From assembly GCA_028682915.1 (NCBI GenBank), contig JAJRAN010000092.1, forward strand, positions 1-41,171: a stretch of DNA of 41,171 bases. The letters are read 5' to 3'. The translations under genes and the position numbers were made by a program. The notes beneath the pieces were generated by a model. It saw only the letters and a list, made by a program, of their open reading frames with translations, was not told the origin of the DNA and made no database searches. The stretch comes from Methanomassiliicoccales archaeon. GTDB taxonomy: Archaea; Thermoplasmatota; Thermoplasmata; Methanomassiliicoccales; UBA472. Shown one piece after another: positions 584 through 30,810 of the stretch. How positions within the stretch are numbered: the stretch's first letter is position 1; each line of letters opens with the position of its first letter.

Positions 584-1612
584 ATGGAGTGGAATTGCCT
601 TCCTACATGTATCGGCTCGCTTCCTCACCTCAGGGCGAAGCAAGCGGTGGACGTGGCGCTGCGCCACCTAAGCCGGATCCCTTACTGGCCACAGCTCCCG
701 ACCATCGGTTTCGAGGAGAACATGTACGCCCAGTACGCCACGCATCTCCCGGGCGTCAGCATCGACGCCCACGCCAAGAGGATCAGCGTCGACCTGGATA
801 ATTACGATCCCGAGCGCTTCTACGAGGCAGTGCTGGGCGAGGACTTCCATTATTTCGATTACCCGCGCACCTGCTTCCACGGGCTCTACGAGCTCCTCGA
901 GGAACGGGAGCTGCCGGCCGGGGCGCTCTACCTCAAAGGCCAGGTGACTGGCCCTATCAGCCTCGGCCTGCAGGTCTTCGACCAGACGGGTAAGAGCGTG
1001 ATCTACGACGAGGCGTACTCCGAGATCGTGAGGATGGGGCTCAACATGATGATGCGGCAGCAGGAGTTCATGCTCAGGGAGAAGCATCCGCGGACCATCC
1101 TGTTCTTGGACGAGCCCTCGCTCTCCCTTGTAGGGACGCCTTTCGCCGCCATCTCCAAAGAGCACGTGATCCAATGGATCGACGAGGTGCTGCAGGGTGT
1201 GACCAGCGTCAAGGCCCTGCACTGCTGCGGCAACACCGATTGGCCCATGGTCCTTTCGACGAAGATCGACATGCTCTCCTTCGACGCCTACAGCTACGGC
1301 TACACCATCGCCCTCTATCCCGACGACGTGGCGGCCTTCCTGGAGAGGGGAGGGGCCGTCGCCTGGGGAATAGTCCCCAATGACGAGGAGGGATTGACGA
1401 AGGAGACCCCGGCTAGCCTGGTGGAGCGGTTGGAGCGGGAGATGTTCAACCTGAGCTCCAGGGGCATATCCCCCGATCTTATCTTCCGGGCCGCGCTGAT
1501 CACGCCGCAGTGCGGCCTCGCCACCTTGAACGACGAGACCTTGGCCGAGAGGACCCTGCACCTGCTGGCGAAGACCTCGGAGCTGATGCGGGAGCGACAT
1601 TCTCTGAGGTAG
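584..1612 (+). CDS. Core methionine synthase (MetE C-terminal-like, UroD/MetE superfamily)
   Basis: This 342-residue protein has only the catalytic barrel of cobalamin-independent methionine synthase and lacks the N-terminal MetE half. The expected zinc ligands are visible: His213 with Cys215 in the ALHCCGNTDW segment, and Cys310 in TPQCGLAT. The barrel starts with the IGSLPH motif typical of the family. Core MetE proteins in anaerobes such as Dehalococcoides take the methyl group from the methylated corrinoid iron-sulfur protein rather than from folate. Here the gene lies between RACo and CooC and opposite the corrinoid protein genes, so methyl transfer from methyl-CoFeSP to homocysteine is the likely reaction (inference). 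The stop lies 3 bases before the cooC start, so the two are probably cotranscribed. A different methyl-acceptor thiol is possible. Confidence 0.75.
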   Translation: MEWNCLPTCIGSLPHLRAKQAVDVALRHLSRIPYWPQLPTIGFEENMYAQYATHLPGVSIDAHAKRISVDLDNYDPERFYEAVLGEDFHYFDYPRTCFHGLYELLEERELPAGALYLKGQVTGPISLGLQVFDQTGKSVIYDEAYSEIVRMGLNMMMRQQEFMLREKHPRTILFLDEPSLSLVGTPFAAISKEHVIQWIDEVLQGVTSVKALHCCGNTDWPMVLSTKIDMLSFDAYSYGYTIALYPDDVAAFLERGGAVAWGIVPNDEEGLTKETPASLVERLEREMFNLSSRGISPDLIFRAALITPQCGLATLNDETLAERTLHLLAKTSELMRERHSLR

Positions 1613-1615
1613 GAG

Positions 1616-2368
1616 ATGAGCTACAGGATCGCCGTGGTGGGCAAGGGTGGCGTGGGCAAGAGCACGATATCCGCCATGCTGGTTAGAGCCCTCCATCAAT
1701 CCTCGGACAAGCTGATCATGGCGGTGGACGCCGACCCCAATGCCAATCTGGGCGAGAAGCTCGGCGCAAGGCCGGAGCATACTATCGGGGAGCTCCGGGA
1801 GCAGCTGCTCAAGAAAGCGGATGAGATCCCTCCCGGCCAGAGCAAGCAGGAGTACGTCGAGTACCAGATGCGCCTGGCGACCGTCGAGGGCCCCGGCTTC
1901 GACCTGCTCACCATGGGCCGTCCGGAGGGGCCAGGGTGCTATTGCTACATCAACAACATATTGCGCACCTTCCTGGACCTGGCCATGGAAAAGTATGATT
2001 TCGTGGTCATCGACAACGAGGCAGGGATGGAGCACCTGTCGAGGAGGACCACAATGAGCATGGACGTCCTACTCCTGGTCACGGACCCGACCAAGGTCGG
2101 GGTGGAGACCGCCTCGAGGCTCCTCGCCTTGGCGAAGGAGATGGGCCTGGAGGCCAAGAAGAAGGTCCTGATCATCAATGGGATGAGGGAAGCCCTGCAT
2201 GACGTGGTGCAGCAGGAGGTCGAAAGGATCGATGTTGACGAGGTCGTACGCATCCCCTTCAGCGACGACTTGCTGAACTTCTCCACCGAGGGCCTGTCCA
2301 TCTGGGAGTTGAGCGAGGCCGATCATGCCTACAAGGCCCTCGCCACTGCGGCGGCTAGGATCATCTGA
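1616..2368 (+). CDS. cooC: CooC-type nickel-insertion ATPase for CO dehydrogenase (copy 1)
   Basis: This is a 250-residue MinD/SIMIBI P-loop ATPase. The deviant Walker A GKGGVGKST is at residues ~9-17 and the switch aspartate at DADPNANLG. The CooC-specific metal-binding Cys-x-Cys is in GPGCYCYINN, and a Walker B-like FVVIDNEAGMEH follows. CooC dimerises around the CxC pair and drives ATP-dependent nickel insertion into the C-cluster of CODH. It is 3 bases downstream of the methionine synthase gene and within 8 kb of the CODH-ACS fusion gene, its probable client. A second paralogue lies at 22.4-23.2 kb, so the two may serve different sites (C-cluster and A-cluster); that split is inference. 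Confidence 0.9.
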   Translation: MSYRIAVVGKGGVGKSTISAMLVRALHQSSDKLIMAVDADPNANLGEKLGARPEHTIGELREQLLKKADEIPPGQSKQEYVEYQMRLATVEGPGFDLLTMGRPEGPGCYCYINNILRTFLDLAMEKYDFVVIDNEAGMEHLSRRTTMSMDVLLLVTDPTKVGVETASRLLALAKEMGLEAKKKVLIINGMREALHDVVQQEVERIDVDEVVRIPFSDDLLNFSTEGLSIWELSEADHAYKALATAAARII

Positions 2369-2515: not shown

Positions 2516-3973
2516 TCACTTCCCGTACTTGGCCCAGTAATCGGCGAAGAGCGCCTCGTCGGTGGGGATCGGCTTGGGGGTGGGCAGGATGCGCGAGACC
2601 CAGGTGAGGTTCACGAACATCCTGGCGTTGACGTTCTCGGTGGTTATGTTGCGTCCCCAGGTGCCGCAGGAGAGCGAGAGCGTGAATGGCAGGCCGTTGC
2701 GCGGGCCACCGGCGCCCTCGTTCATGTTCTGGTTCACCATGACCCTCCCGGTCTTGGTGTTGAATGCCAGGTCCTCCACGTGCTTGTCGTTCTTGGTGTG
2801 GATGCCACAGCTGTGCCCCAGTCCCTGGTACCCGGTGATCTTGTTGACCCAGTCGACGGCGTTCTTGAACGGGTCGTGGTACTTGTAGAGGGCTAGGACG
2901 ACGGACAGCTTCTCCCCGGAGAAGGGGTGCTCGGGGCCGGCCCCGTTCTCTTCCACCACCAGATATGTCTTCCCCTCGGGAAGGTCGATGTTGGCGAGCT
3001 TGGCGATGTGACCAGCAGACTTGGCGATTACGTCCAGGCTTGGGATCGCCCCTCCGGTTGGCCACATGACCTTCTGCAGGCGGGCCTTCTCCTCGGGGGT
3101 GCACACGTACGCGCCCATCTTCTCCATCTTCTCGACCAGGGGCTTGTAGATGGACGCGTGGGCGACGATGGCGTTGTCGGCAAGGCAGCTGGTGGCGTAG
3201 TCGAACAGCTTGCCGCGGGTGATCATGAGGGCAGCGTCATCGAGGTCTGCGGTCTCATCCACCACGTGCACGGTGTTGCCGACCCCCACACCATACGCGG
3301 GGGTTCCGGAGCTGTACGCGGACCTGACCATGTCGACGCCGCCGGTGGCGACGACCAGGTCGGACTGGCGCATGAGCTCCTGGGTCTTGGCGATCGATGG
3401 CTTCTGGATGATCTGTATGAGGTCCTCGGGCACGCCGATGGCCCTGCAGCCGTTGCGCATGAGGTTGACGGCCAGCTCGGAGGACTTCTGGGTCTTGGGG
3501 TGGGCGGCGACGATGATGGCGTTCTTGCCCTTCAAGGCGCACAGCGCCTTCATGGGCGGCGTCGCGTCCGGCCCGGTGGACGGTATGATGGCGGCCACGA
3601 CGCCAACGGGCTTCGCGATCTTGACCAGCTGCTTGACAGGGTCCTCCTCGACGATCCCGACGGTCCTGATGCTCTTCATGTCCTGGATGGTGCCGGTGAC
3701 GCGCAGGCGTATCTTGGTTATCTTGTCCTCGACGTTGCCGAACCCTCCCTCCTCGACAGCGAGCTTGGCGAGGGCCTCCTTCTCCTTCACCACGGCCCAC
3801 CCGATGGCCATGACAAGCATGTCCGCTTGGGCCTGGTCGTAGTGCTCGATGGCCTTCATGGCTTGACGCGCCTTCGCCATCATCTCCGAGATCTCTGGCT
3901 TCGGATCGGGTTTCGGCTCAGGTGGCTTTGCAGCCGCTGGAGCGGCAGGGGCAGTAGTCGGTTGATTTGTCAT
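2516..3973 (-). CDS. CoA-acylating aldehyde dehydrogenase (EutE/SauS-like)
   Basis: This 485-residue protein has the acylating aldehyde dehydrogenase fold and would interconvert acyl-CoA + NAD(P)H with aldehyde + CoA. The probable catalytic cysteine is Cys263 in YATSCLADNAIV. The family C-terminal motif (LSCGTWGRNITTENVNARMF) is clear. Residues ~1-28 form a Pro/Ala/Lys-rich tail (TAPAAPAAAKPPEPKPDPKP) that precedes the globular domain and looks like a disordered linker. It lies 189 bases behind acsC on the same strand, so acetyl-CoA from the CODH-ACS system is an obvious substrate and acetaldehyde the product. Relatives act on sulfoacetaldehyde or succinate semialdehyde, so the substrate is inferred from context. 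Start ATG at 3973. Confidence 0.82.
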   Translation of the reverse strand: MTNQPTTAPAAPAAAKPPEPKPDPKPEISEMMAKARQAMKAIEHYDQAQADMLVMAIGWAVVKEKEALAKLAVEEGGFGNVEDKITKIRLRVTGTIQDMKSIRTVGIVEEDPVKQLVKIAKPVGVVAAIIPSTGPDATPPMKALCALKGKNAIIVAAHPKTQKSSELAVNLMRNGCRAIGVPEDLIQIIQKPSIAKTQELMRQSDLVVATGGVDMVRSAYSSGTPAYGVGVGNTVHVVDETADLDDAALMITRGKLFDYATSCLADNAIVAHASIYKPLVEKMEKMGAYVCTPEEKARLQKVMWPTGGAIPSLDVIAKSAGHIAKLANIDLPEGKTYLVVEENGAGPEHPFSGEKLSVVLALYKYHDPFKNAVDWVNKITGYQGLGHSCGIHTKNDKHVEDLAFNTKTGRVMVNQNMNEGAGGPRNGLPFTLSLSCGTWGRNITTENVNARMFVNLTWVSRILPTPKPIPTDEALFADYWAKYGK

Positions 3974-4162
3974 GAGCGCATCAAGTGAAAACTGCCTACT
4001 TAACCCTTATCTACTGAGCTTGCATGGAATGACGGAGAATTTCACGCCGAACGCAGGAAGAACGCATAATTCCCGTAAAAAATCCCAATCTCCTCCACGC
4101 CGTTAATTCCGTACTACCATGGCTTCCATCCCTCTACCACCGACGTCCCTAGGTCGCGCTGG

Positions 4163-5491
4163 CTAGCTTAGATTCTTCAGGAACTTGGGTATCCCCGACG
4201 ATTCCTTCGGTCCAACGACGACCCTCATCCCGCTCAGCTCCTGAAGCTTCCCGCTCATCCTCGACACCATGCCCGGCATCACGAGGACCTCGGACCCGCT
4301 CCTCTCCTTGGCAGCCGATGACTCGAGCGCCTTGACCACGATCTCGGGTGTCAGCTTGCCGGCGGAGAACGCGGTCATCACGCTCAGCCCTTCCGAGTCC
4401 ACCACCAGCAGCCAGGCCGGTACCTTCGACTTCTCTATGTCCGCCAGGACCGTGAAGTAGGTGAGGGAGAAGTTGGTGGTGAAGAGGATGGGCGCGCCCT
4501 CCTTGGCCCCGTTCACCGGATACAGGCCCGGCTTGACCTGGATCGGGACCTGCGGGTCGGTGTAGATGTTCTGTCGTAGCACGAAGAGAGGCAAGGCCTG
4601 CGCCTCGGAGATGTCATCGAAGATCACCAGGCTGCCGTACTTCATCACCGCGAGCATGCCCTTGAGCACTGCCTCCTCGCCCTTGCCCGCGTCGACGAGG
4701 ATGGGATATCCCAGCCCCCGGAATAGCTTCTTCACGGAGAGCTTGCGGACCTTGCTGCAGCCCTCGAGCTGGTCCTTCAGGCTCTTGGAGCCTAGGTCGA
4801 GGACCAGGTCCTCCAAGCCCGTCGCCTTGGCCTTGGCCGCCAGGTCCGCCATCTCGTTCAGGTCCTTTGCCCCGGTCAATGCCATCGGGCAGCCCAAGGT
4901 CCTGGCCACCGACGCCATCTCGGCCAAGTTCCGCTGGTCGGCCCCGTAGAGCAAGGGCCTCCTCGCCGCCACCTTGGAGGCGGCGACCTTCATGCGCTCG
5001 GGGGAGCTGGATACGAGCACCAGGGGCAGGTCGCAGGCCGAGGCGGCCTCCTCGACGGCCGATGCGAACTTGGACGGATCACCCGAATCGTCCTTGACGG
5101 CGATGGAATCGAAGCCGAGGGTCTGGCCGACGCGCTCGAATCGCACCGATCTGATGGCCTCGACCCTTCCTCGTACCTCATCCTTGGGCAGCTGATCCGA
5201 AACCGCGACCGCGAACGCCGTGGGATGGAAGAACTTCTTTTCGTGGCGGTAGATCTCGGTCTCGTCCCCCATCTCTATCGCCCTCTGCCCCGAACCGAAC
5301 CTGACCAGGCGGATGGGTGGGGCGGAGGAGGCGGCCAGGGCGGCCTTGCCCTCCTCGGAGACGAACGGGCAATCCTCCAGCTTGGCCTTGGAATTGGCCA
5401 GCTGCATGGCGAACGCCAGGCAGGTGGGGTAGTTGCACTTGCCACAGTTCTTCTTGGGCAGGTGCTTGAAGATCTCGATGGCGGTCGGCAT
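4163..5491 (-). CDS. acsC: Corrinoid iron-sulfur protein large (gamma) subunit, AcsC/CdhE
   Basis: This 442-residue protein begins with the cluster-binding motif NCGKCNYPTCLAFAM and a fourth cysteine in EDCPF (residues ~16-41). That arrangement holds the low-potential 4Fe-4S cluster that reduces the corrinoid. It is followed by a TIM barrel and a C-terminal cobamide-binding domain. The subunit carries the methyl group from the methyl-pterin methyltransferase to acetyl-CoA synthase. Its start is 1 base from the acsD stop, so the subunits are translated together. Length agrees with bacterial AcsC and archaeal CdhE. The neighbouring small subunit and synthase are bacterial-type, so the symbol acsC is used here. 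Confidence 0.95.
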   Translation of the reverse strand: MPTAIEIFKHLPKKNCGKCNYPTCLAFAMQLANSKAKLEDCPFVSEEGKAALAASSAPPIRLVRFGSGQRAIEMGDETEIYRHEKKFFHPTAFAVAVSDQLPKDEVRGRVEAIRSVRFERVGQTLGFDSIAVKDDSGDPSKFASAVEEAASACDLPLVLVSSSPERMKVAASKVAARRPLLYGADQRNLAEMASVARTLGCPMALTGAKDLNEMADLAAKAKATGLEDLVLDLGSKSLKDQLEGCSKVRKLSVKKLFRGLGYPILVDAGKGEEAVLKGMLAVMKYGSLVIFDDISEAQALPLFVLRQNIYTDPQVPIQVKPGLYPVNGAKEGAPILFTTNFSLTYFTVLADIEKSKVPAWLLVVDSEGLSVMTAFSAGKLTPEIVVKALESSAAKERSGSEVLVMPGMVSRMSGKLQELSGMRVVVGPKESSGIPKFLKNLS

Positions 5492-5492
5492 T

Positions 5493-6446
5493 TTAGACCC
5501 CCCCGCTCAGGCCGTCGATGGCCCTGCGCACGATGCCCGCGGAGCTGGGCGAGCGCATGATCAGGACGTCCGCGCCGGAGACCAGCGCCGCCAGGCCGGT
5601 GGTGGCCTCCCACCAGACGGCCCTCTCCTCCAGCCCGTCGTGGCCCTCCAGCTCCTCGCTCGCCTCCTTGGCCTTCCACGCCGAGGTGGTGTCGCAGATC
5701 AGCGGCACCTGGAGCATGGAGTCGCCCATCAGGGCCGCCAGGCGAATCCGCTCCATTACCGAGTACGAGTACTCCAGCCCCATCCCCAGCGCGGCGAACA
5801 GAGGGTCGAGGACGATGCGGTCCTTCCGGGTCCCGAAGTCGATCAGGAGGATGTTTATCTGCTTGCTCAGGTTGACGTCCAGATTGGCGAAGGATATGAT
5901 GGAGTGGTCGTTGGCCATGGCCGCCGCGGAGACGCTCTTGTAGGCCGATTCCTCCGCCTGGCCCAGGAGCAGCCGCTCCTTCGGGGCGGCGTTGCTCACC
6001 ACCTCCATCACCTTGGCGTCCTTCTCTTCGTGGCCGGAGCCATAGACGATGAGGGGCACGTCCACCGCCCTCAGCACCTTGAGGACGGTCTGCGCCGCCT
6101 CCTCCGGGGAGCGGTCCAGCTCCTCCGGGTTCGTCGAGTGAAGCTTGAGGCATATCAGGTCGGCGCCGCGCGATATCCAGGCCTTGGCCCAGGTGACGGG
6201 GTCCTCGCAATCCGCTTGGAATTCCTTCCGCACCTGCTCGGGCAGCTCTTCCAGGTAATCCAGCACCTCTCCGGCGATCAGCGGGCGATTGACCATGGCG
6301 CCCTCGTAAGAAAGGAAGGGCATCCCGGTCTCGCCGCCGATCGCCAGCTTCTTGGCTCGGGAGCCTCCCTCGTCCGCGGTAGCGCCCAGGCTCACGACGC
6401 CGATCTTGCCCGTCCACTTCTCCTTGGTTACTGGTACCTCTGTCAT
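5493..6446 (-). CDS. acsD: Corrinoid iron-sulfur protein small (delta) subunit, AcsD/CdhD
   Basis: This 317-residue TIM-barrel protein matches bacterial AcsD in length and in remembered segments such as VNRPLIAGEVLD, GADLICLKLHSTNPEE, LLLGQAEE, YKSVSAAAMA and MERIRLAALMGDSML. Archaeal CdhD is usually longer (over 400 residues), so the bacterial length is notable. It pairs with AcsC to form the heterodimer that shuttles the methyl group. The gene lies 16 bases behind the CODH-ACS fusion gene and 1 base before acsC, in one operon. No folate or pterin methyltransferase (AcsE/MtrH type) is visible in this window, so the methyl donor is encoded elsewhere. Confidence 0.93.
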   Translation of the reverse strand: MTEVPVTKEKWTGKIGVVSLGATADEGGSRAKKLAIGGETGMPFLSYEGAMVNRPLIAGEVLDYLEELPEQVRKEFQADCEDPVTWAKAWISRGADLICLKLHSTNPEELDRSPEEAAQTVLKVLRAVDVPLIVYGSGHEEKDAKVMEVVSNAAPKERLLLGQAEESAYKSVSAAAMANDHSIISFANLDVNLSKQINILLIDFGTRKDRIVLDPLFAALGMGLEYSYSVMERIRLAALMGDSMLQVPLICDTTSAWKAKEASEELEGHDGLEERAVWWEATTGLAALVSGADVLIMRSPSSAGIVRRAIDGLSGGV

Positions 6447-6462
6447 CTCCTCACCTCGAGCG

Positions 6463-9400
6463 TCATTGTAGCAGCGGGGGCATCCTCAGCGCGGGATGGT
6501 CCACCTTGGCCATCCACTCCACCAGGCCTTCCGCCGTTTCGGTGACCGTCTCGTCCGCGATCTTGTCCACGAAGTCCGGCTCGCCCAGCTCCTCGGCCCT
6601 CCTCTTGAGCGCATCCTGCATCTGGGTCTTGAGATCCTTCGGCATCCAGGCGATGCGCAGGAACCCGCCGTCCGCGGATATGAACTTCTTGGATAGTATG
6701 TACTTGCGCCCCACGCCGATGAAGCCCGGGGTCTGCTTTCCCCCTCCGATGCTACCGGCCAAGGTGGAGAACTTCATCCCCACCGGGGTCATGCCAGGGT
6801 ACTCGCGGTTGACTAGGATGACCGCCTGAGCGTCCGCGGTCATGGCCACGATGACCTCGAAGCAGCCGCAGGAGGTCATGGGGTCCTCCATCATGGTGTA
6901 GGCGTTGAACCTCTCCAGCTTGCCGCGTGTCAGCTCGCGCACGGCCCGGTTCACGCCTTCCCATTGTCCTTTGGTGGCGTCGATGACCTCTCCCTTGGGG
7001 ACGGGCTGGTTCGGTCCGGTGGGCGCAATCTCCTTGGCGGCCTTGGCGTCGAGCCAATTGATCGCGCCGCACAGGCCGAGGCGCTCCGGGGTGATAATGC
7101 ATATATGGTCTGGAGCGAAGGACTGACAGAGCGAGCAGGTGAACATCGTCTCCACCGCCTCGTCGGTAAGTCCGGCCAGGCGCTGGTCCCTCTGCCTGTA
7201 CTTCTCCTGCGCCATGGGAAGAAGCTCGGTCGCCTTGGCCTCGTCGGTGATGATGGTGACCTGGACCCTGGACACGATGTTGCTGAACTCCGCCTTGATC
7301 TTGGTCACTAGGATGTCTCCGAAGTGCTTGAAACGCAACCCCGCGCGAACTGAGCTCTTGGAGAGCCTCACCCAGATGGTGTTCCTCTGGCCAGTGTGCC
7401 AAGCCCCCTCGGCGAAGTTCACGAACTGATGGATCCTGCGCTCCAGGACAGTTTCGAAGTCCTCTTGCATCTTCTTGCCGTAGACGTCCACCAGTATGAC
7501 CAAGGGCGTCCTTGCGCCCTCCGGCATCTGGTCCACGTCCTTGCCTATGATTGTGATCCTCCCATCCTCCACCTGGTCCTCGGGGAGCATGCGCAGCAGC
7601 TCGAAGGCCAGGGTCTTGGCTGCGCCTCCCACCTCCACGTATGTGTCGGGCCTACGGACGGTCTCTCCCTCGAAGGCCGGCCCGTACGCCACTGGGATGT
7701 CCACGTGCGCCAACCTGACCTGGATGCCGCGCAGCTCGATGGCCGTCTGGACCATCTTGCCGTAATCTGGCTGGGAGATGAATCTCTCGGGGATCGGCTC
7801 GACCTCCTGGTCGGTGATGGTGGGCGAGCCGTTGAGCAGCACCGCGAACTCCGCCGCGGCCTTGATGGAATCGATGGGGCCGAGCTGGAGCACGAACACC
7901 TTCGGCCTCCTCTGCAGGTACTTCTGCAGTCGCTCGCGGTCGCCCTTCTGCACGTTGCCGAAGGTCAGCGCGGCGCGTATCGCGAAATTGAGAGCATGTA
8001 TCACCTGGGTGAACTCGCCCACCGGGTAGAGCATGACGTCGAGGCCCACCTTCACCCCCTGGTCCTGAAGCTGGCGGACGGTGTCGAAGGAGGCGATGAT
8101 GAGCATTCCCTTGGACTGGCAGTCGCGCACGACCTTGAGAAGGGCCTGGGGGTCGCTCGCGCTCCCCACCAAGACTGCGCATCCAGGAATGGTGTCGTCC
8201 ACGAACGCCACCCCCAGCTCGCGCAGGACCTTGTCGGGGATGAAGCCGCAATAGTCGGTGCCCTCGTACGGCCTCTCGGTAGGAATGTACTTCAAGGCCT
8301 CGATCACCTCGGCCGCCACCATGACCGCCTCCCCGGCGGCCAAGGCGTTGTCGTAGGTGGCCTCCTCCCTGATCAGGGAACGGGCCTGGCCCAGTACCCC
8401 CGGCATGTCCGTGAGTCGGCGCACCTCCTTCCCCTGCCAGGCAAGGACGGCGGGGAGCGAGTAGCCGGTCTCGGGGAACTCCACCTTCTGATCGTAGCCG
8501 TAGCGCTCTATAGCCACCGAGAGGAGCTGGTCCGCGAATCCCGTGGCGATGATGGCGCCGTCGATCGCCTTGGAGTAGAGCTGCCGCGCCTTGAGCGGTG
8601 CGCCCTTCTCCGCCTGGTAATGGTTCTCCAGCTTGAGCTTCCAGCGCCGGCGCTCTATCTCGTTCAGCAGCTTCCTGGCCGCGAGCTCGGGGACCGGCTC
8701 GAAGAAGAACCTGCCACCGAAGACGTCCTGGGTGGTGTTGGTGAGCACCTCCGTCACCAGGTCCGAGCCGTAGATGTAGTTGATCGTGCCCACGTGCACC
8801 GGCAGTCCGAACGCCACCGCCCACGTGCCGATGGACACGGCCTTCTCGTGGTTGGCCTCGGGGGCGCTTACCGCGAAGGGGATGGAATTAACATCCACCC
8901 CGAAATGATTGGCCAGCTCCGTGGCCAGGTTCATGGCCCGGGTGTTGTCGACGCAGGACCCCATGTGCCAGATCGGCGGAAGGTCGACATCGTTGGCCTG
9001 GGACAGCTCCTCCAGGAACGCCTTGAGGCCAGGTCCCGCGTACAGCTCCGTGGCCGCCGAGGAGAGGAACCCGTTCTTGGCGAAGGCGCCCGCGGAGCAT
9101 CCGGTGGCCAGGACCAGCACGTCGTTACGGAGCAGCTCCTGCGCGATGGCCAAATGATCGTAGTCCTGCTCGGAGCGCTGGTTGTTGCAGCCGGCCATCA
9201 GGGCTATGCCCCTGACCCTTCCCGCCTTCAGCGCGTGGACCAGGTGCATCCATGGGTCCTCCGGCGCCAGCTTGGACAGGAGCTCTTCCACCTGCTCCAG
9301 CGAGAAGCCGGCGATGACCTCGGAGCGGACGTCGGGGATGCTGACCTTGGCCGGGTCCCGGCGCTTGAAGGCCTCGATGGCCATCCTGATGATGGTGCGG

Positions 9401-10539
9401 GCGCTCTCCTCGGCGTCCTCCTCCCGGAACTGGATGTGGGTGTCGTAGGGGATGTGGACGTTGGCCATGGTGGTGACCATCTCGGTGTTCACGCACTGGC
9501 ATATCTCGGACAGGGAGGGCATGATGCACTGGTAATCGGCGACGAGCAGGTCCACGGCGCCGGTGGCCAATGCCAGCTCCTGCGAGGCGAAGTTGGCGGC
9601 CATGCTGACGCCCTTGCGCATCAATGCCTCGTTCCCGGTGCAGCATATGCCCACGATGTTGATTCCCGAGGCGCCTGCCTGCCTGGCATCGTCCTCCATC
9701 TTCTTGGCGACGTCCACCACCACCTCCGACAGCACCGGGTTGTGCCCGTGGATGGCGATGTTGACCGCCTCGGCCTTCAAGGTGCCGAGGTTGGCCTGGG
9801 TGCGCACCAGGCGCGGGGTCCCGAACAATATGTCCGAGAGGTCGGTGGACAGCTGCATGCCGTCGTAGTCGGCGACGGCGCAGGCCACGCCCCCGAAGAT
9901 GAGGGGTATGGGGTCAGCGTCGCATCCGAGCGAGGTCCGGTGCATGACATCCGCCACCGCGTGGTCGATGTTATTCGGCAGCAGGCCGAAGGATGCCAGC
10001 ATCTCCTTGCGCTTGGGAGTTATGGTCGATGTGGTGAATCGTAGAGGGACGTTGGAGAATCGGGCGAAGTCCTCGAGGGCCTCGTTGACCACCGCCCTGG
10101 CCAATTCCTCCTTGGTACTGTTGGATGAATCGATCCCCAACCTGCGGGCGACCCGCTTCAGCTTATCCAGGTCCTTAATGGAATAGGTCCCCGCCTTGCC
10201 TTCCAGGACCTTGACCAGGGTCTCGGCGATGTGCCGCCCGTGGCCGGAATGGGCCGCGGCCCCGCCGGCGATGTGGCGGATCAGGTTCCTCGCCACGATG
10301 GTGTAGACCCTCGCCCCGCAGATGCCTTTGTCAGGCCCGTCGCGGAGAGGATTGATGCGGCAAGGCCCTTGCAGGCAATGGTCGCAGCAGACCCCGAGCT
10401 CGCCGAACGTGCATTGGGGCTGCATTTTCTCGTACCTGTCCCAGGCGGTCTCGATATGGTTCGCTGCGGCGATCTCGATGCCCTGCTTGGCGCCTGGGTC
10501 GCAGGTCTTGCCCTTCCTATGCGCCTTCTTGGAAGCCAT
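6463..10539 (-). CDS. Fused CO dehydrogenase-acetyl-CoA synthase (CooS/AcsA joined to AcsB)
   Basis: This is one 1358-residue polypeptide with two complete enzymes. Residues 1 to ~640 are a CooS/AcsA-type Ni-CODH. Cys43 and Cys51 fit the D-cluster, and Cys52, Cys55, Cys60 and Cys74 fit the B-cluster. C-cluster ligand motifs appear in order: HGHNPV, GICCTGNE, DYQCIMPS, GCNNQRS, GCSAGAF and MGSCVDN. From residue ~645 to the end is a bacterial-type acetyl-CoA synthase that keeps the N-terminal CODH-docking domain absent from archaeal CdhC. Its A-cluster cysteines are Cys1135, Cys1138, Cys1147 and Cys1157 with CGC at 1224-1226; the intervals equal those of Moorella AcsB (506, 509, 518, 528, 595-597). 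It would reduce CO2 to CO and join CO, methyl and CoA. No stop or frameshift separates the halves. First gene of the acs operon. Confidence 0.97.
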   Translation of the reverse strand: MASKKAHRKGKTCDPGAKQGIEIAAANHIETAWDRYEKMQPQCTFGELGVCCDHCLQGPCRINPLRDGPDKGICGARVYTIVARNLIRHIAGGAAAHSGHGRHIAETLVKVLEGKAGTYSIKDLDKLKRVARRLGIDSSNSTKEELARAVVNEALEDFARFSNVPLRFTTSTITPKRKEMLASFGLLPNNIDHAVADVMHRTSLGCDADPIPLIFGGVACAVADYDGMQLSTDLSDILFGTPRLVRTQANLGTLKAEAVNIAIHGHNPVLSEVVVDVAKKMEDDARQAGASGINIVGICCTGNEALMRKGVSMAANFASQELALATGAVDLLVADYQCIMPSLSEICQCVNTEMVTTMANVHIPYDTHIQFREEDAEESARTIIRMAIEAFKRRDPAKVSIPDVRSEVIAGFSLEQVEELLSKLAPEDPWMHLVHALKAGRVRGIALMAGCNNQRSEQDYDHLAIAQELLRNDVLVLATGCSAGAFAKNGFLSSAATELYAGPGLKAFLEELSQANDVDLPPIWHMGSCVDNTRAMNLATELANHFGVDVNSIPFAVSAPEANHEKAVSIGTWAVAFGLPVHVGTINYIYGSDLVTEVLTNTTQDVFGGRFFFEPVPELAARKLLNEIERRRWKLKLENHYQAEKGAPLKARQLYSKAIDGAIIATGFADQLLSVAIERYGYDQKVEFPETGYSLPAVLAWQGKEVRRLTDMPGVLGQARSLIREEATYDNALAAGEAVMVAAEVIEALKYIPTERPYEGTDYCGFIPDKVLRELGVAFVDDTIPGCAVLVGSASDPQALLKVVRDCQSKGMLIIASFDTVRQLQDQGVKVGLDVMLYPVGEFTQVIHALNFAIRAALTFGNVQKGDRERLQKYLQRRPKVFVLQLGPIDSIKAAAEFAVLLNGSPTITDQEVEPIPERFISQPDYGKMVQTAIELRGIQVRLAHVDIPVAYGPAFEGETVRRPDTYVEVGGAAKTLAFELLRMLPEDQVEDGRITIIGKDVDQMPEGARTPLVILVDVYGKKMQEDFETVLERRIHQFVNFAEGAWHTGQRNTIWVRLSKSSVRAGLRFKHFGDILVTKIKAEFSNIVSRVQVTIITDEAKATELLPMAQEKYRQRDQRLAGLTDEAVETMFTCSLCQSFAPDHICIITPERLGLCGAINWLDAKAAKEIAPTGPNQPVPKGEVIDATKGQWEGVNRAVRELTRGKLERFNAYTMMEDPMTSCGCFEVIVAMTADAQAVILVNREYPGMTPVGMKFSTLAGSIGGGKQTPGFIGVGRKYILSKKFISADGGFLRIAWMPKDLKTQMQDALKRRAEELGEPDFVDKIADETVTETAEGLVEWMAKVDHPALRMPPLLQ

Positions 10540-12945: not shown

Positions 12946-13503
12946 TCATTCGATGACCAACAAGACCTTCCCGCCGTCCACGGTCTCGCCTGGCTTGGCC
13001 TTTATCTCCTTCACGGTACCGGCCACGCCCGCTAGTATCTCGTTCTCCATCTTCATGGCCTCGAGGATGGCCACGAGGGTGTTCGGCTCGACCTTTTCGC
13101 CCACCTTGACCTTGACGGAGATGAGCTTCCCTGGCATGGGGGCGGATATGTTGCCCGCCTCCTCCTTTCCCGAGGAGCTGGTCTCTTCCTCCTCGGAGTA
13201 GGACTCGCCCTTCTCCAGCTCGATGATGGGCTCTACCCTGGCCTTGACGGTGCGCCCACCCATGCCGAGCTCCGCCCCCTCCTCCAATGAGCCATCGAGG
13301 CTGATGGCCAGGAACTCCCCGTTGATGAGGAAGCCGCCCTCCTTGGGGACGCATTTGTAGGTGGACTCGCCCACGGTGACGCGGTAGTCGCCGCCGTTCT
13401 TCTCCACCATGACCTCGTGCTCCTGCCCGTTGAGGTGGACCTTGATCTTCAAAGGATCCAGCCCCCCCCGTTCACCGATTCGCGGCGGGCCGCCATCTTC
13501 CAC
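12946..13503 (-). CDS. Biotin carboxyl carrier protein (1.3S-type subunit)
   Basis: The C-terminal ~70 residues are a biotinyl domain with the attachment lysine in EAMKMENEI and the flanking ISAPMPGKLISVKV strand. Residues ~100-118 are an acidic, Ser-rich linker, and the N-terminal part (IKVHLNGQEHEVMVE) resembles carriers of decarboxylase and transcarboxylase systems. The start is uncertain: GTG at 13503 follows a GAGG and gives 185 residues but overlaps the previous gene by 55 bases. A TTG at 13452 would overlap the upstream stop by a few bases and start at the first conserved residues, which I consider at least as likely. The carrier moves a carboxyl group between the two carboxyltransferases encoded just upstream. 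Confidence 0.88.
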   Translation of the reverse strand: MEDGGPPRIGERGGLDPLKIKVHLNGQEHEVMVEKNGGDYRVTVGESTYKCVPKEGGFLINGEFLAISLDGSLEEGAELGMGGRTVKARVEPIIELEKGESYSEEEETSSSGKEEAGNISAPMPGKLISVKVKVGEKVEPNTLVAILEAMKMENEILAGVAGTVKEIKAKPGETVDGGKVLLVIE

Positions 13504-14939
13504 ATGTCGACCTCGCCGCCCTGAGCGCTCTTCTTGGCCTTGCTACGCTTCTCCGCCTGAGCCACGAAGAGGGCGGCTATGGCGGCGATCTCCCGGGCGT
13601 TCGTGCCCTTCTCCATCATCTCCCTCTCCTTGAAGAAGTCGATGGCGACCTGCGGGAAGAGCGCGTAGGAGAGCACGTCCTCCTCTCCCCTGGCATACTG
13701 CTTGACCTCGGCCGCGAGCCTCTCGAACTCGGGCGGGAGCAGGTCCGCTGGCCTCACCGTGATGGGCTTCTCGTCGCCGATGATCTTCTTCCTTATCTCG
13801 GCGGAGATGGGGGCCGGGGTCTTGCCGTACATGCCCCGAACCAGGTTCTTGGTCTCGTTGGTACAGGACTTGTACCTCTGGCCCGTGATGACGTTTAGGG
13901 TGGCTTGGGTGCCCACTATCTGCGAGGTGGGCGTCACCAGTGGCACGTAGCCAAGGTCGGCGCGCACCCTCGGCACCTCCTCCAGCACGTCGTGGATCTT
14001 GTGCTCCTGCTTCGCCTCCTTGAGCTGGGTGGCGAAGTTGGACATCATTCCACCGGGTATCTGGAATATGAGCACGTCCGTGTCGATGGCGGTGGTCTTG
14101 GACTCGAAGTCGTGGTACTTCTTTCGCACCTCGTTGAAGTACTCTGAGATCTCCGCCAGCTTCTTGAGGTCCAGGCCGGTGTCGTATTCCGTCCCGCGCA
14201 GCATGGCCACCAGGGATTCCGTCGGCGGCTGCGAGGTCCCCATGGAAAGCGCCGAGATGGCCGTGTCCACGATGTCCACGCCGGCCTCTATGGCCTTCAG
14301 GTACGACGTGAGCGCCATCCCCGAGGTCATGTGCGAGTGCAGGTGGATGGGCACGGAGGTCTCCTCCTTGAGCCCCTTGACCAGGTCGTAGGCGTCGTGC
14401 GGCGAGATCAGGCCGGCCATGTCCTTGATGCAGATGGTGTTGGCCCCCATCTCCTCCAGCTTGCTGCCCAGCTTGACGAAGCCCTCGATGGTGTGCACCG
14501 GGCTGATGGTGTAGGAAATGGAGGCCTCGAGCGCCGCCCCGAGCCGCTTGACCGTCCTCATGGCCATCTCCATGTTTCGGGTGTCGTTGAGCGCATCGAA
14601 GACGCGGAACACGTCGATCCCTCGGGCGTGCGCCCTCTCGATGAACTTTATCAACACATCATCGGAATAGTGCCGGTATCCGACGATGTTCTGCCCTCGG
14701 AGCAGCATCTGCAAATGCGTGTTGGGCATTACCTTGCGCAGCTTGGAGATGCGCTCCCACGGGTCCTCCTTGAGGAAGCGCAGGCAGGTGTCGAAGGTCG
14801 CCCCGCCCCACATCTCCACGCTCCAGTAGCCTATCTCGTCGATGAGCGGGGCGATGGGCAGCATGTCCTCGGTGCGCATGCGGGTGGCCAGGAGGGACTG
14901 GTGAGCGTCCCTGAGCATGGTGTCGGTTACCTTGACCAT
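13449..14939 (-). CDS. Pyruvate/oxaloacetate carboxyltransferase subunit (PycB/OadA/5S type)
   Basis: This 496-residue protein has the HMGL-like TIM barrel of biotin-dependent carboxyltransferases. Hallmarks are the N-terminal DTMLRDAHQSLLATRM, GGATFDTCLRFL, the metal/lysine-site region CIKDMAGLI, and HLHSHMTSGMALTSYLKA. The C-terminal PYC_OADA domain follows, but the protein ends before any biotin domain, which is the separate downstream gene. It transfers carboxyl between carboxybiotin and pyruvate/oxaloacetate. It lies 9 bases behind the 12S-like gene. In pyruvate carboxylase it would need a biotin carboxylase partner, and none is present here; with the adjacent 12S-like subunit a transcarboxylase role is plausible. 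Confidence 0.92.
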   Translation of the reverse strand: MVKVTDTMLRDAHQSLLATRMRTEDMLPIAPLIDEIGYWSVEMWGGATFDTCLRFLKEDPWERISKLRKVMPNTHLQMLLRGQNIVGYRHYSDDVLIKFIERAHARGIDVFRVFDALNDTRNMEMAMRTVKRLGAALEASISYTISPVHTIEGFVKLGSKLEEMGANTICIKDMAGLISPHDAYDLVKGLKEETSVPIHLHSHMTSGMALTSYLKAIEAGVDIVDTAISALSMGTSQPPTESLVAMLRGTEYDTGLDLKKLAEISEYFNEVRKKYHDFESKTTAIDTDVLIFQIPGGMMSNFATQLKEAKQEHKIHDVLEEVPRVRADLGYVPLVTPTSQIVGTQATLNVITGQRYKSCTNETKNLVRGMYGKTPAPISAEIRKKIIGDEKPITVRPADLLPPEFERLAAEVKQYARGEEDVLSYALFPQVAIDFFKEREMMEKGTNAREIAAIAALFVAQAEKRSKAKKSAQGGEVDMWKMAARRESVNGGGWIL

Positions 14940-14948
14940 CTTCTCACC

Positions 14949-16514
14949 TCACAACGGCATGTTCCCATGCTTCTTGGCGGGCCTGGCCTCGCGCTTGCGT
15001 TCCAGCGTCCTCAGGGCATGGATGAGCTTGATCCTGGAGTCCTTGGGCTCGATCACGTCGTCCACGTAGCCTTTCTCGGCGGCGACGAAGGGATTGGCAT
15101 GCGATTTGTTGTACTCGGCGACCAGCTCCTCCCTCTTCGCCTGGGGGTCGTCGGCCATGATCAGCTCCTTCTTGTAGACGATGTCGATGGCCGTGCTGGG
15201 GGACATGACGGCGATCTCCGCCGTGGGCCAGGCCAGGGTGATGTCGGAGCGTATGTGCTTGGAGGCCATGACGCAATATGCTGGCCCTATGGCCTTCCTC
15301 ACGATCAGCGTGACCTTGGGGACGGTGGCCTCGCAGTAGGAGTACATCAGCTTGGAGGCGTTGCGCACGATGCCGCCCGCCTCCTCCTCCACGGAGGGCA
15401 GGTATCCAGGCACATCGACCAGCGTGATGATCGGAAGGTTGAAGGAGTCGCAGAAGCGCACGAACCGCGCCGCCTTGATGGAGGAGGCGTTGTCCAGGGT
15501 GCCAGCGAGCACCGAGGGGTGATTGGCCACCAACCCCACCGGCTGACCGTCCAGCCGGGCGAAGCCCACGATGACGTTCCTGGCGAACTCCTCCTGGACC
15601 TCCAGGAACTCGCCGTCGTCGAAGACCTTGCGTATGACCGAAATCATGTCCAAGGGCTTCATCGGGTCCTCGGGCACGATGCTGTTGAGCGTCTCCTCGA
15701 CCCGGTCCACTGAGTCCTTGGTCTGGGAGCGTGGCGGCGACTCCAAGTTGTTGGAGGGAAGGTAGGAGACCAGCCTCTTCAGGGTGCGTATGCTCTCCGC
15801 CTCGTCCTTGGAGGTGAAATGCGCGGCGCCGCTTTTCATCGAATGGACCGCGGCGCCGCCGAGCTCCTCATAGTCGACGTCCACGTTCTGCACCAACTTC
15901 ACCACATCCGGACCGACCATGAACATCTGGCTCGTTCCCTTGACCATGAAATTGAAATCGGCGAGGCCGGGCGAGAAGACCGCGGTTGCCGCGCAAGGTC
16001 CCATGACCATGGAGATCTGGGGCACGACCCCGGAGGCGATGGCGCTGCGGAAGAACATCTCCGAGTAACCGGCAAGGGCGTCCATGCCCTCCTGGACCCG
16101 GGCGCCCCCAGAGTCATAAATGCCGATGACCGGGCTGCCGTTCTTCACGGCCAGATCGACCACCTTGCATATCTTCATGGCGTGCATCTTGCCCACCGAG
16201 CCGGCGAAGACGGTGAAGTCCTGGGCGAAGAGGTAGACTTGCCGGCCTTCGATGGTGCCATGTCCCGTGACCACCCCGTCGCCAGGGATGTGGACGCGCT
16301 CCATGCCGAAGTCGTGGCACTGGTGGGTGAGGAAGGCGTCCAGCTCCACGAAGCTCCCTGGGTCGAGGATGGCCTCGATGCGCTCTCGGGCGGTCATCTT
16401 GCCTTGCTTGTGCTGCCTCTCGATCCGCTCGCTGCCGCCGCCGACCCGCGACTTGCGCTTCAGCTCCTTGAGCTCCTTTATGTCCTTGCGCTCCCCGTTC
16501 TTCTCGTCCGCCAT
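14949..16514 (-). CDS. Acyl-CoA carboxyltransferase (PccB/MmdA/12S type)
   Basis: This 521-residue protein has the crotonase-fold tandem domains of biotin-dependent acyl-CoA carboxyltransferases. The N half includes MTARERIEAILDPGSF, the first oxyanion region DSGGARVQEGMDAL and the ELGGAAVHS strand. The C half includes LVDVPGYLP with a second oxyanion region, and the family C-terminus KKHGNMPL. Members act on propionyl-/methylmalonyl-CoA as a carboxylase beta subunit, a decarboxylase alpha subunit or the transcarboxylase 12S subunit. The neighbours (5S-like subunit, biotin carrier, biotin ligase) argue for one biotin-dependent complex. A methylmalonyl-CoA substrate is likely but not proven from sequence. 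Confidence 0.92.
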   Translation of the reverse strand: MADEKNGERKDIKELKELKRKSRVGGGSERIERQHKQGKMTARERIEAILDPGSFVELDAFLTHQCHDFGMERVHIPGDGVVTGHGTIEGRQVYLFAQDFTVFAGSVGKMHAMKICKVVDLAVKNGSPVIGIYDSGGARVQEGMDALAGYSEMFFRSAIASGVVPQISMVMGPCAATAVFSPGLADFNFMVKGTSQMFMVGPDVVKLVQNVDVDYEELGGAAVHSMKSGAAHFTSKDEAESIRTLKRLVSYLPSNNLESPPRSQTKDSVDRVEETLNSIVPEDPMKPLDMISVIRKVFDDGEFLEVQEEFARNVIVGFARLDGQPVGLVANHPSVLAGTLDNASSIKAARFVRFCDSFNLPIITLVDVPGYLPSVEEEAGGIVRNASKLMYSYCEATVPKVTLIVRKAIGPAYCVMASKHIRSDITLAWPTAEIAVMSPSTAIDIVYKKELIMADDPQAKREELVAEYNKSHANPFVAAEKGYVDDVIEPKDSRIKLIHALRTLERKREARPAKKHGNMPL

Positions 16515-16559
16515 GGCCGCCTCTCACCACCGTTTTCGTTATGAATCTTCGAATTCGTA

Positions 16560-17333
16560 TTAATCCTTTCTTAATGTTATTCCATCCAGTTCTTCGCTAT
16601 TCGTTGTCCGGATGCTGGTTTCGTTGACCCAAGACAGTCTCAGCACCAACCCCTCGTCGCTCCTTATCACCAAAGCACCATCTGGCGCGAGGTATAAGGC
16701 CTTGCCCCTGAAGGTCTCCTTCCCCACCCTGGCCTCGATGCACCTCCCCAGGGTGCAGGAGCGGTGCACGTACTCGTCCTCGTTGAGGTCGCCCTCCTTC
16801 ACCTCCTTATAGAAGGATCTCAGCCTCAGCAGCAGGCTCTCCAGCAGTGCGTCCATGTCGGCCTCCCGCCCCAACAACGCTTTGAGCGAGGTGGCCTCTG
16901 GCTCCCTGATACCCTCTGGCATCGAGTTCACGTTCAATCCGATCCCAAGCACGATGAAGTCGAGGTACGCCCCCTTGCTCACGCCCTCCACCAGGATGCC
17001 GCCGACCTTCTTCCCCTGGACCATCAGGTCGTTGGGCCATTTGAGCTGGACGTCGATCCCGCACGCCTCCTCGATCGCCTGCGCCACGGGGACGCAGGAG
17101 AAGACCGTCATCTTCAGGAGGTCCGCGCTCCGCATCCTCGGTCGCAGCAATATGGACAGATAAAGGCCGCCTTCCGGGGAGGACCAGCCTCTCCCCATCC
17201 GGCCTTTGCCCGTGGTCTGGCTCTTCGCCAGGACTACGAGCCCCTCCTCCTCGCCCTCCCTGCCCAAGCTCTTGGCTAACTCGTTGGTGGACGTCACCTC
17301 CCCCAGCCTCAGGACCCGGCGACCGACGACCAT
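16560..17333 (-). CDS. birA: Biotin-protein ligase (BirA catalytic type)
   Basis: This 257-residue protein has the BPL fold without a DNA-binding domain. The ligase motif is a variant GKGRMGRGWSSPEGGLYLS at residues ~43-61, followed by LKWPNDLMVQGKKVGGILVE and the C-terminal domain with a beta-strand barrel. It activates biotin with ATP and attaches it to the carrier lysine. It is the first gene of the biotin module, 46 bases before the 12S-like gene, so enzyme and client are co-expressed. Absence of an N-terminal winged helix means it should not repress biotin synthesis genes as E. coli BirA does. Confidence 0.93.
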   Translation of the reverse strand: MVVGRRVLRLGEVTSTNELAKSLGREGEEEGLVVLAKSQTTGKGRMGRGWSSPEGGLYLSILLRPRMRSADLLKMTVFSCVPVAQAIEEACGIDVQLKWPNDLMVQGKKVGGILVEGVSKGAYLDFIVLGIGLNVNSMPEGIREPEATSLKALLGREADMDALLESLLLRLRSFYKEVKEGDLNEDEYVHRSCTLGRCIEARVGKETFRGKALYLAPDGALVIRSDEGLVLRLSWVNETSIRTTNSEELDGITLRKD

Positions 17334-29982: not shown

Positions 29983-30810
29983 TCACGCCCTAGCCTGGAT
30001 TCCGAAGAATAATGTCCATGCCAGCAAGGACTTGGACACCAAGCTTAGGATGATGTAGCCCCTCTCTCCGGTAAGGTAGTCCGCCCACCTGCCCTTCTTC
30101 CTGTACTGCAGGACCATGTTGATCGGGAAGCTGATCCAGAACAGCACAAGGGTGGCGGTAGCGATGTACACAAAGTCTGGGATGTTGCCAGAGTTATCCA
30201 TCGCTGCCCCGAAGAAGTACATGAGCACGGCGACCCAGGCGATTGCACCGACGATAGAACCGAAAATGAAATTCGTCCAATCCGTCTTCTTCGTGTACTG
30301 ATTCTGCAACTCCATGGACAGGCCGAACAGGTTCATGGCGGCATTACAGCCAATTAGCAGGATGATCGCAGCCGCATCGTTGAGCCCGCTCAGGAGAGCG
30401 ATAATCACGATCATCAACGATGAAGATATGGCGTACTCGTACCATCGGGCCGGGTTCATGCCCTTGCTCAGGTTCCTGACGTACCATTTGTAGCCGAAGG
30501 TGGCCACCGAGTAATGGGCGATCGCCGACATGAACATGAAAGCCGCAATCATCGGTCCCAGGGGTACCTCGAATAGGGTTGCTTGGTTAGGAATCGGCCC
30601 AACTCCCTCCTGGAACTTGAAGAAGTTGGTGGTGATAGGCACCCAGACCTCCTCGGTCAGAGCAAGCATGATGATACCTTGGATCAGATGCAAAGTACCC
30701 ATCACCAGGTTCCATTTCTTCAATTTTAAGTATTTCGGATCGCTAGGATTCGCCTCAACATTGGTTCCCTCAACCAAATACTCACCTTGGGGGAGATTTA
30801 AAGGCACCAA
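29983..30810 (-). CDS. Heliorhodopsin
   Basis: This 275-residue protein has seven hydrophobic segments and the heliorhodopsin signature. The retinal lysine is Lys260 in LVSKSLLAW (helix 7) and the counterion is Glu125 in ARWYEYAISSSLM (helix 3). His41 (GTLHLIQG) and His99 (AIAHYSV) correspond to His23 and His80 of the 48C12 protein. Heliorhodopsins are light-sensing retinal proteins with inverted topology (N-terminus inside) and mostly no pumping activity; their role is debated. No retinal synthesis gene is in the window. The start is weak: TTG 30810 or GTG 30807, the latter giving 274 residues. A TATA-like element (30844-30854) precedes it, and it is divergent from the YkgJ-like gene. Confidence 0.95.
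   Translation of the reverse strand: MVPLNLPQGEYLVEGTNVEANPSDPKYLKLKKWNLVMGTLHLIQGIIMLALTEEVWVPITTNFFKFQEGVGPIPNQATLFEVPLGPMIAAFMFMSAIAHYSVATFGYKWYVRNLSKGMNPARWYEYAISSSLMIVIIALLSGLNDAAAIILLIGCNAAMNLFGLSMELQNQYTKKTDWTNFIFGSIVGAIAWVAVLMYFFGAAMDNSGNIPDFVYIATATLVLFWISFPINMVLQYRKKGRWADYLTGERGYIILSLVSKSLLAWTLFFGIQARA

Follow-up and report, generated by a model that had tools for sequence, protein, structure and literature searches.

A predicted single-chain carbon monoxide dehydrogenase-acetyl-CoA synthase in a Methanomassiliicoccales archaeon

Carbon monoxide dehydrogenase (CODH) and acetyl-CoA synthase (ACS), two enzymes of the oldest carbon-fixation pathway, are normally separate proteins. In the bacterial class 1 CODH/ACS of Moorella thermoacetica and Carboxydothermus hydrogenoformans (PDB 1oao, 1mjg, 7zkj), they are made as two chains, AcsA and AcsB, with AcsC and AcsD as partners. 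The archaeal acetyl-CoA decarbonylase/synthase (ACDS) complex, known from Methanosarcina and composed of CdhA, CdhB, CdhC, CdhD and CdhE, catalyzes the same reaction, CdhE and CdhD being homologous to AcsC and AcsD. Its CdhA carries extra E and F clusters and its CdhC is devoid of the ACS N-terminal domain. In Dehalococcoides mccartyi, the Wood-Ljungdahl pathway is incomplete: ACS, the corrinoid iron-sulfur protein (CoFeSP) and the methionine synthase MesB are kept and CODH is absent. We know of no CODH fusion or CODH remnant in this organism. Here, a 41,171-nucleotide contig of a Methanomassiliicoccales archaeon (JAJRAN010000092.1, referred to as the window) was analyzed, in which one gene, located at positions 6463-10539 of the minus strand, joins the two enzymes. 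Both are full length and resemble the bacterial class 1 system in their cluster ligands, A-cluster spacing and AcsCD partners, whereas they form a single frame of 1358 residues instead of two chains and belong to an archaeal host. ACS/CODH, together with MtrAH and a tetrahydrofolate (THF)-linked C1 pathway, was previously reported in MALP, a metagenome-assembled genome (MAG) from a basal lineage of the same order, with no mention of a fusion (Speth and Orphan, 2018, PMC6147122).

Architecture and active sites of the fused protein

The frame comprises 1358 codons without internal stop, and its product (P0001) is organized as follows:

6463..10539, minus strand: codh-acs fusion gene, 1358 residues, from ATG to stop
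8632..10503, minus strand: CODH half, residues 13-636, supported by TIGR01702, the CODH-II alignment, the ligand table and the AlphaFold2 (AF2)/Foldseek match
8590..8631, minus strand: junction or linker, residues 637-650, predicted to be ordered (block pLDDT about 86-92)
6466..8589, minus strand: ACS half of the full-length bacterial type, residues 651-1358, supported by NF040764, PDB 7zkj_B and the A-cluster spacing

About 15 residues thus link the two halves. Pfam domains follow one another in the order Prismane (50-615), CODH_A_N (671-752), CdhC (948-1102) and ACS_CODH_B_C (1114-1357). The CODH half was assigned to the CooS/AcsA type by the NCBIfam model TIGR01702 (681 bits over residues 13-636, cut-off 478) and the ACS half to the bacterial type by NF040764 (954 bits over residues 659-1356, cut-off 800); no NCBIfam family model covers the fused chain as a whole. 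The archaeal CdhA type was rejected for the CODH half, TIGR00314 scoring 46 bits (cut-off 781). Among solved structures, the best relative of residues 651-1357 was the ACS of Carboxydothermus/Moorella (7zkj_B, 829 bits). For residues 5-635 it was the stand-alone CODH-II (703 bits), and the CODH half matched this enzyme a little better than the AcsA chain 7zkj_A (705 and 655 bits, respectively).

The original prediction had proposed, from a strand left unstated, one 1358-residue frame holding every ligand set for the B, C and D clusters followed by a full-length bacterial-type ACS, and this description was borne out, with the minus strand now added. From the CODH-II alignment and the ligand table, the D-cluster ligands were placed at C43 and C51, those of the B cluster at C52, C55, C60 and C74, and those of the C cluster at H264, C299, C338, C451, C481 and C529, while the acid-base pair corresponds to H97 and K566. 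In addition to the N-terminal domain (CODH_A_N), the ACS half contains the A-cluster motif C-x2-C-x8-C-x9-C ... CGC of a full AcsB, with cysteines C1135, C1138, C1147, C1157, C1224 and C1226. Their intervals of 3, 9, 10, 67 and 2 are, as had been predicted, the same as in Moorella AcsB, whose A-cluster cysteines we take to be residues 506, 509, 518, 528, 595 and 597. The AF2 model of residues 1-960 reached a pLDDT of 88 and a predicted template-modeling score (pTM) of 0.90 with an ordered junction, and its CODH part was superimposed on CODH-II by Foldseek with a TM score of 0.97 of the target and a root-mean-square deviation of 1.5 A. Judged from its sequence, the region 6463-10539 encodes CODH and ACS in one polypeptide, both with their active sites complete. 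Pairwise dN/dS values against the nearest fused relative (0.21 for CODH and 0.15 for ACS) indicate that both halves are under purifying selection.

Distribution, origin and decay of the fusion

A search for relatives with both domains in one chain showed that other genomes carry the fusion as well. Full-length frames of 1362-1400 residues containing both domains were found in 12 other Thermoplasmatota genomes belonging to several families (G005, G006, G007, G014, G023, G025, G028, G285, G076, G133, G100 and, at locus L003, G421). The fusion was read from a single MAG contig, which could have raised the suspicion of an assembly or sequencing artefact. Such an error near 8.6 kb is excluded, since the same architecture with homologous junctions is present in these 12 genomes, and the artefact can be regarded as refuted. 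Adjacent, separate CODH and ACS genes were found in Thermoplasmatota loci L011, L174, L175, L176 and L185. No fusion to CODH was observed in Bacillota, where 116 of 399 genomes had an ACS match (110 over the cut-off), nor in Actinomycetota (78 of 297 genomes, 64 over the cut-off), which amounts to none among about 170 full-length ACS matches sampled in these two phyla. The loci sampled in other bacterial phyla were all unfused. No published description of a CODH-ACS fusion was found, although our coverage of the literature on CODH/ACS evolution is incomplete and an earlier notice is possible; according to Inoue et al. (2019, PMC6344411), fused Ni-CODHs are catalogued in the supplement to their article.

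Long Actinomycetota ACS frames (896-1264 residues) were rejected as CODH fusions. Their ACS is interrupted near model position 572, which would fit inteins at the CGC motif. In the ACS of L176 (positions 2899-5568, minus strand, genome G071), an intein sits right at the A-cluster CGC motif, where several Actinomycetota ACS frames are interrupted too. A different one, carrying a LAGLIDADG domain, lies in the A-cluster C-x2-C motif of the ACS of L081 (positions 4408-8010, minus strand, genome G043), whose C-terminus beyond the intein is in another frame, an apparent frameshift. Some frames of about 1000 residues were likewise discarded as other fusion types: that of L088 is probably just a long open upstream frame, and the rest contain CODH remnants.

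The Thermoplasmatota sequences grouped together in the ACS tree, and the nearest bacterial sequence was that of Sporomusa malonica. The fusion most likely arose from adjacent bacterial-type genes early in Thermoplasmatota. In a joint tree of CODH and ACS (1344 columns), the fused or separate state changes twice, the separate genes of L174 and Sporomusa being basal and the split genes being nested among the fused ones. Most parsimoniously, these sequences would reflect one fusion early in Thermoplasmatota, followed by a single re-separation in the clade of L176, L175, L011 and L185. The need for at least two changes on the best tree might instead suggest several independent fusions, a scenario that we consider rather unlikely: at least three changes would be required where one fusion and one separation are enough, and the split CODHs end in a tail similar to the linker of L178/L179, their nearest fused relatives. 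Moreover, the approximately unbiased test did not reject a tree that unites all fused sequences in a single clade and on which one fusion is sufficient (p 0.113), so that the re-separation above all is tentative.

In the ACS tree, intact fusions were found in the basal lineages of Methanomassiliicoccales, with altered forms nested among or above them. In G006 (L073:5778-9869), which adjoins the window lineage, the fused CODH carries C299G and K566R (C295 and K563 in CODH-II), possibly a first step of decay, and no other CODH match was found in this genome (99% complete). Near-full-length degenerate domains are present in G007 and G010. In the 1371-residue frame of G007, all B- and D-cluster ligands, the C-cluster histidine, the first two C-cluster cysteines and the lysine are lost, and the last three C-cluster cysteines are retained. 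Comparable ligand loss was observed in two other genomes from this genus, G010, likewise devoid of all B- and D-cluster ligands, and G013, whose frames are cut by contig ends; G013 retains one B-type cysteine and one more C-cluster cysteine. A form reduced to about 300 residues precedes ACS in genus g2 (G003, G009, G012, G018 and G019), in G024 and in G054/G400. Profile comparison related the remnants of g2 (E 9e-10) and G024 (E 2e-7) to the CODH C-terminus and, more weakly, that of G054/G400 to another stretch of CODH (E 1e-4). In other relatives, including the single-contig genome G008, ACS stands alone. The six A-cluster cysteines are kept in all full-length ACS sequences.

The degenerate CODH parts displayed pairwise dN/dS values of 0.17-0.42, against 0.06-0.16 for the ACS of the same proteins; these Nei-Gojobori estimates are rough, since dS was near or above 1, and indicate domains that are relaxed but still constrained by purifying selection. 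Many of these genomes also encode a separate, intact CODH that is of a different type (about 40% identity). In others, including G008, G026, G029, G043 and G045, the genome search revealed ACS and no CODH beyond weak hybrid-cluster-like matches. The stand-alone CODH of G020 (L191), which looks degenerate and may be a chimeric frame, was set aside. In the ACS of several CODH-less lineages, the otherwise conserved phenylalanine of the EFTQ motif is replaced by glycine (xGTQ), namely in the L009, L014, L015, L016, L088, L190, G008, G004, G043 and G024 sequences. A link between this substitution and CODH loss is suggestive, and is confounded by relatedness. A plausible reading of this series, just short of probable in our view, is that within Methanomassiliicoccales the fused CODH turned more than once into a metal-free structural domain that selection has kept as part of ACS. 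ACS itself would have become independent of a fused CODH and would now interconvert methyl groups and acetyl-CoA, releasing or using CO, to supply methionine synthesis.

Since sister lineages display such decay and the genome containing the window (G000) also holds parts of a second CODH, from a different clade, the CODH half of P0001 could itself be non-functional already and on its way to loss, CO being handled by the stand-alone enzyme. This is very improbable. All the ligand and catalytic positions tested are intact in P0001, and the dN/dS of its CODH is equal to that of the intact fused pair L072/L075 (0.21).

Gene neighborhood, host and direction of the reaction

The genes surrounding the fusion that are relevant to its function are listed below:

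5493..6446, minus strand: acsD/cdhD, CoFeSP small subunit, 317 residues (PF03599; NF003376, 344 bits), 16 bp downstream of the fusion
4163..5491, minus strand: acsC/cdhE, CoFeSP large subunit, 442 residues (PF03599 and PF04060; NF003195, 522 bits), 1 bp downstream of acsD
2516..3973, minus strand: CoA-acylating aldehyde dehydrogenase-like protein, 485 residues (PF00171; closest NCBIfam model NF047625, below cut-off)
1616..2368, plus strand: CooC-type nickel-insertion ATPase, 250 residues (best PDB relative CooC 3kje, E 3e-22), a conserved neighbor by synteny
584..1612, plus strand: candidate MesB-type core methionine synthase (P0002), 342 residues, with the zinc set H213, C215, D234 and C310
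22390..23184, minus strand: second CooC/MinD-type ATPase, whose homologues adjoin CODH genes in relatives

AcsC and AcsD genes thus lie beside the fusion, as expected for a bacterial CODH/ACS complex, with one chain in place of the two subunits. The aldehyde dehydrogenase-like gene, 189 bp downstream of acsC, also adjoins the locus in G002, of the same genus (L083). The cooC-type and mesB-type genes converge on the fusion/acsDC block from the other side, and this pair is kept next to acsC in most relatives, whether CODH is present or not. The second ATPase may also be linked to CODH in this genome. P0002 has no Pfam match and only weakly matched the methionine synthase model NF002119. Its H-C-D-C zinc set is kept in all homologues aligned and agrees in position with that described for D. 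mccartyi MesB, the core methionine synthase of that organism, in the study defining this family (PMC7857596). According to the same study, Methanomassiliicoccales have MesB only, with CoFeSP as predicted methyl donor. Elsewhere in the window, OadA/pyruvate carboxylase B-like, carboxyltransferase and biotin ligase genes were found at 13449-17333 (minus strand), the first two also lying close to the CODH/ACS locus of several relatives, and a heliorhodopsin gene (PF18761, 305 bits) at 29983-30810 (minus strand) in what is presumed to be a methanogen genome.

The host genome (1.84 Mb, 148 contigs, 93.7% complete) is archaeal, from the methanogen order Methanomassiliicoccales (Thermoplasmatota), and carries a bacterial-type enzyme; the host is not an acetogen. 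McrA was present in 54 of the 61 Methanomassiliicoccales genomes searched and formate-THF ligase in 58, G000 included; MtrH was found in G000 too. With McrA in its relatives and these two proteins of its own, G000 is very probably a methylotrophic methanogen combining folate C1 chemistry with a bacterial-type CODH/ACS. One in-frame TAG was noticed in the MtrH matches of G003, G009, G012, G016 and G018, and a TGA in that of G025, possibly reflecting pyrrolysine or a sequence error.

P0001 is, we believe with good confidence, a catalytically competent single-chain CODH/ACS that interconverts CO2, methyl groups and acetyl-CoA for anabolic purposes. We infer its activity, channeling, direction and methyl partners as follows. 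The CODH half would reduce CO2 to CO at its Ni-Fe C cluster, or oxidize CO, and the CO would pass through a tunnel into the ACS N-terminal domain, joined to the CODH C-terminus by the short linker. The ACS half would then combine CO, the methyl group of the AcsCD corrinoid and CoA into acetyl-CoA, or perform the reverse reaction. In an order of H2-dependent methylotrophic methanogens this role is probably anabolic, for acetyl-CoA synthesis, and the corrinoid-bound methyl group would be exchanged with THF and with the neighboring MesB-type methionine synthase. In cryo-electron microscopy structures of the C. hydrogenoformans complex, CODH contacts the N-terminal domain of ACS through an interface that is the same in the wobbly and closed ACS states (PMC12289521), so that a tether at this place is compatible with turnover. 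The original prediction had also proposed that fusion fixes the CO tunnel partners at 1:1. Co-assembly would indeed be fixed, whereas the stoichiometry brings nothing new, because each CODH subunit of the bacterial complexes is already paired with one ACS (PMC12289521); the gain from fusion would therefore be obligatory co-assembly.

Several observations weigh against this reading of P0001. McrA was not found in the 93.7% complete G000, where its absence is probably a gap, so that the methanogen status rests on relatives. G000 also contains, at contig ends, two fragments of a stand-alone CODH that belongs to a different clade (G000:C130:2-1012 and G000:C22:1-618). Finally, the repeated loss of the CODH half in relatives means that CODH activity is not essential in the order. 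A tenable though tentative alternative is that the main job of the system is acetyl-CoA cleavage, delivering methyl groups through the corrinoid protein to methionine (via MesB) and folate, with the fused CODH disposing of CO. Cleavage would explain why CODH is lost with ACS, AcsCD and MesB kept, as in D. mccartyi, where CO is released from acetyl-CoA cleavage in the absence of CODH (PMC6113397) and the methionine methyl group derives from acetate (PMC7857596). In line with this, the complete single-contig relative G008 has ACS without CODH, the A-cluster cysteines, AcsCD, CooC and MesB are retained in most CODH-less lineages, and an acylating aldehyde dehydrogenase-like gene follows acsC in the window. 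However, CODH is intact and conserved in G000, as CO2 reduction needs, formate-THF ligase could provide methyl groups from formate, and the direction of the reaction is not derivable from sequence. By this parallel with D. mccartyi, acetyl-CoA cleavage is most likely the role in the CODH-less relatives, whereas for the window protein, which has retained CODH, a reversible anabolic use is favored.

Models of early metabolism give CODH/ACS a central place, and the enzyme also serves as a model for gas channeling between active sites. With a natural single-chain form, biochemists would have a CODH-ACS pair held together covalently that they could express and dissect. Besides, the relatives provide a natural series from the intact fusion to a putative metal-free CODH domain and then to ACS alone with its A cluster kept. 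This decay series, the unexpected part of the result, adds interest beyond the fusion itself, as it raises the question of what ACS does without its CODH partner, and of where the CO comes from or goes.

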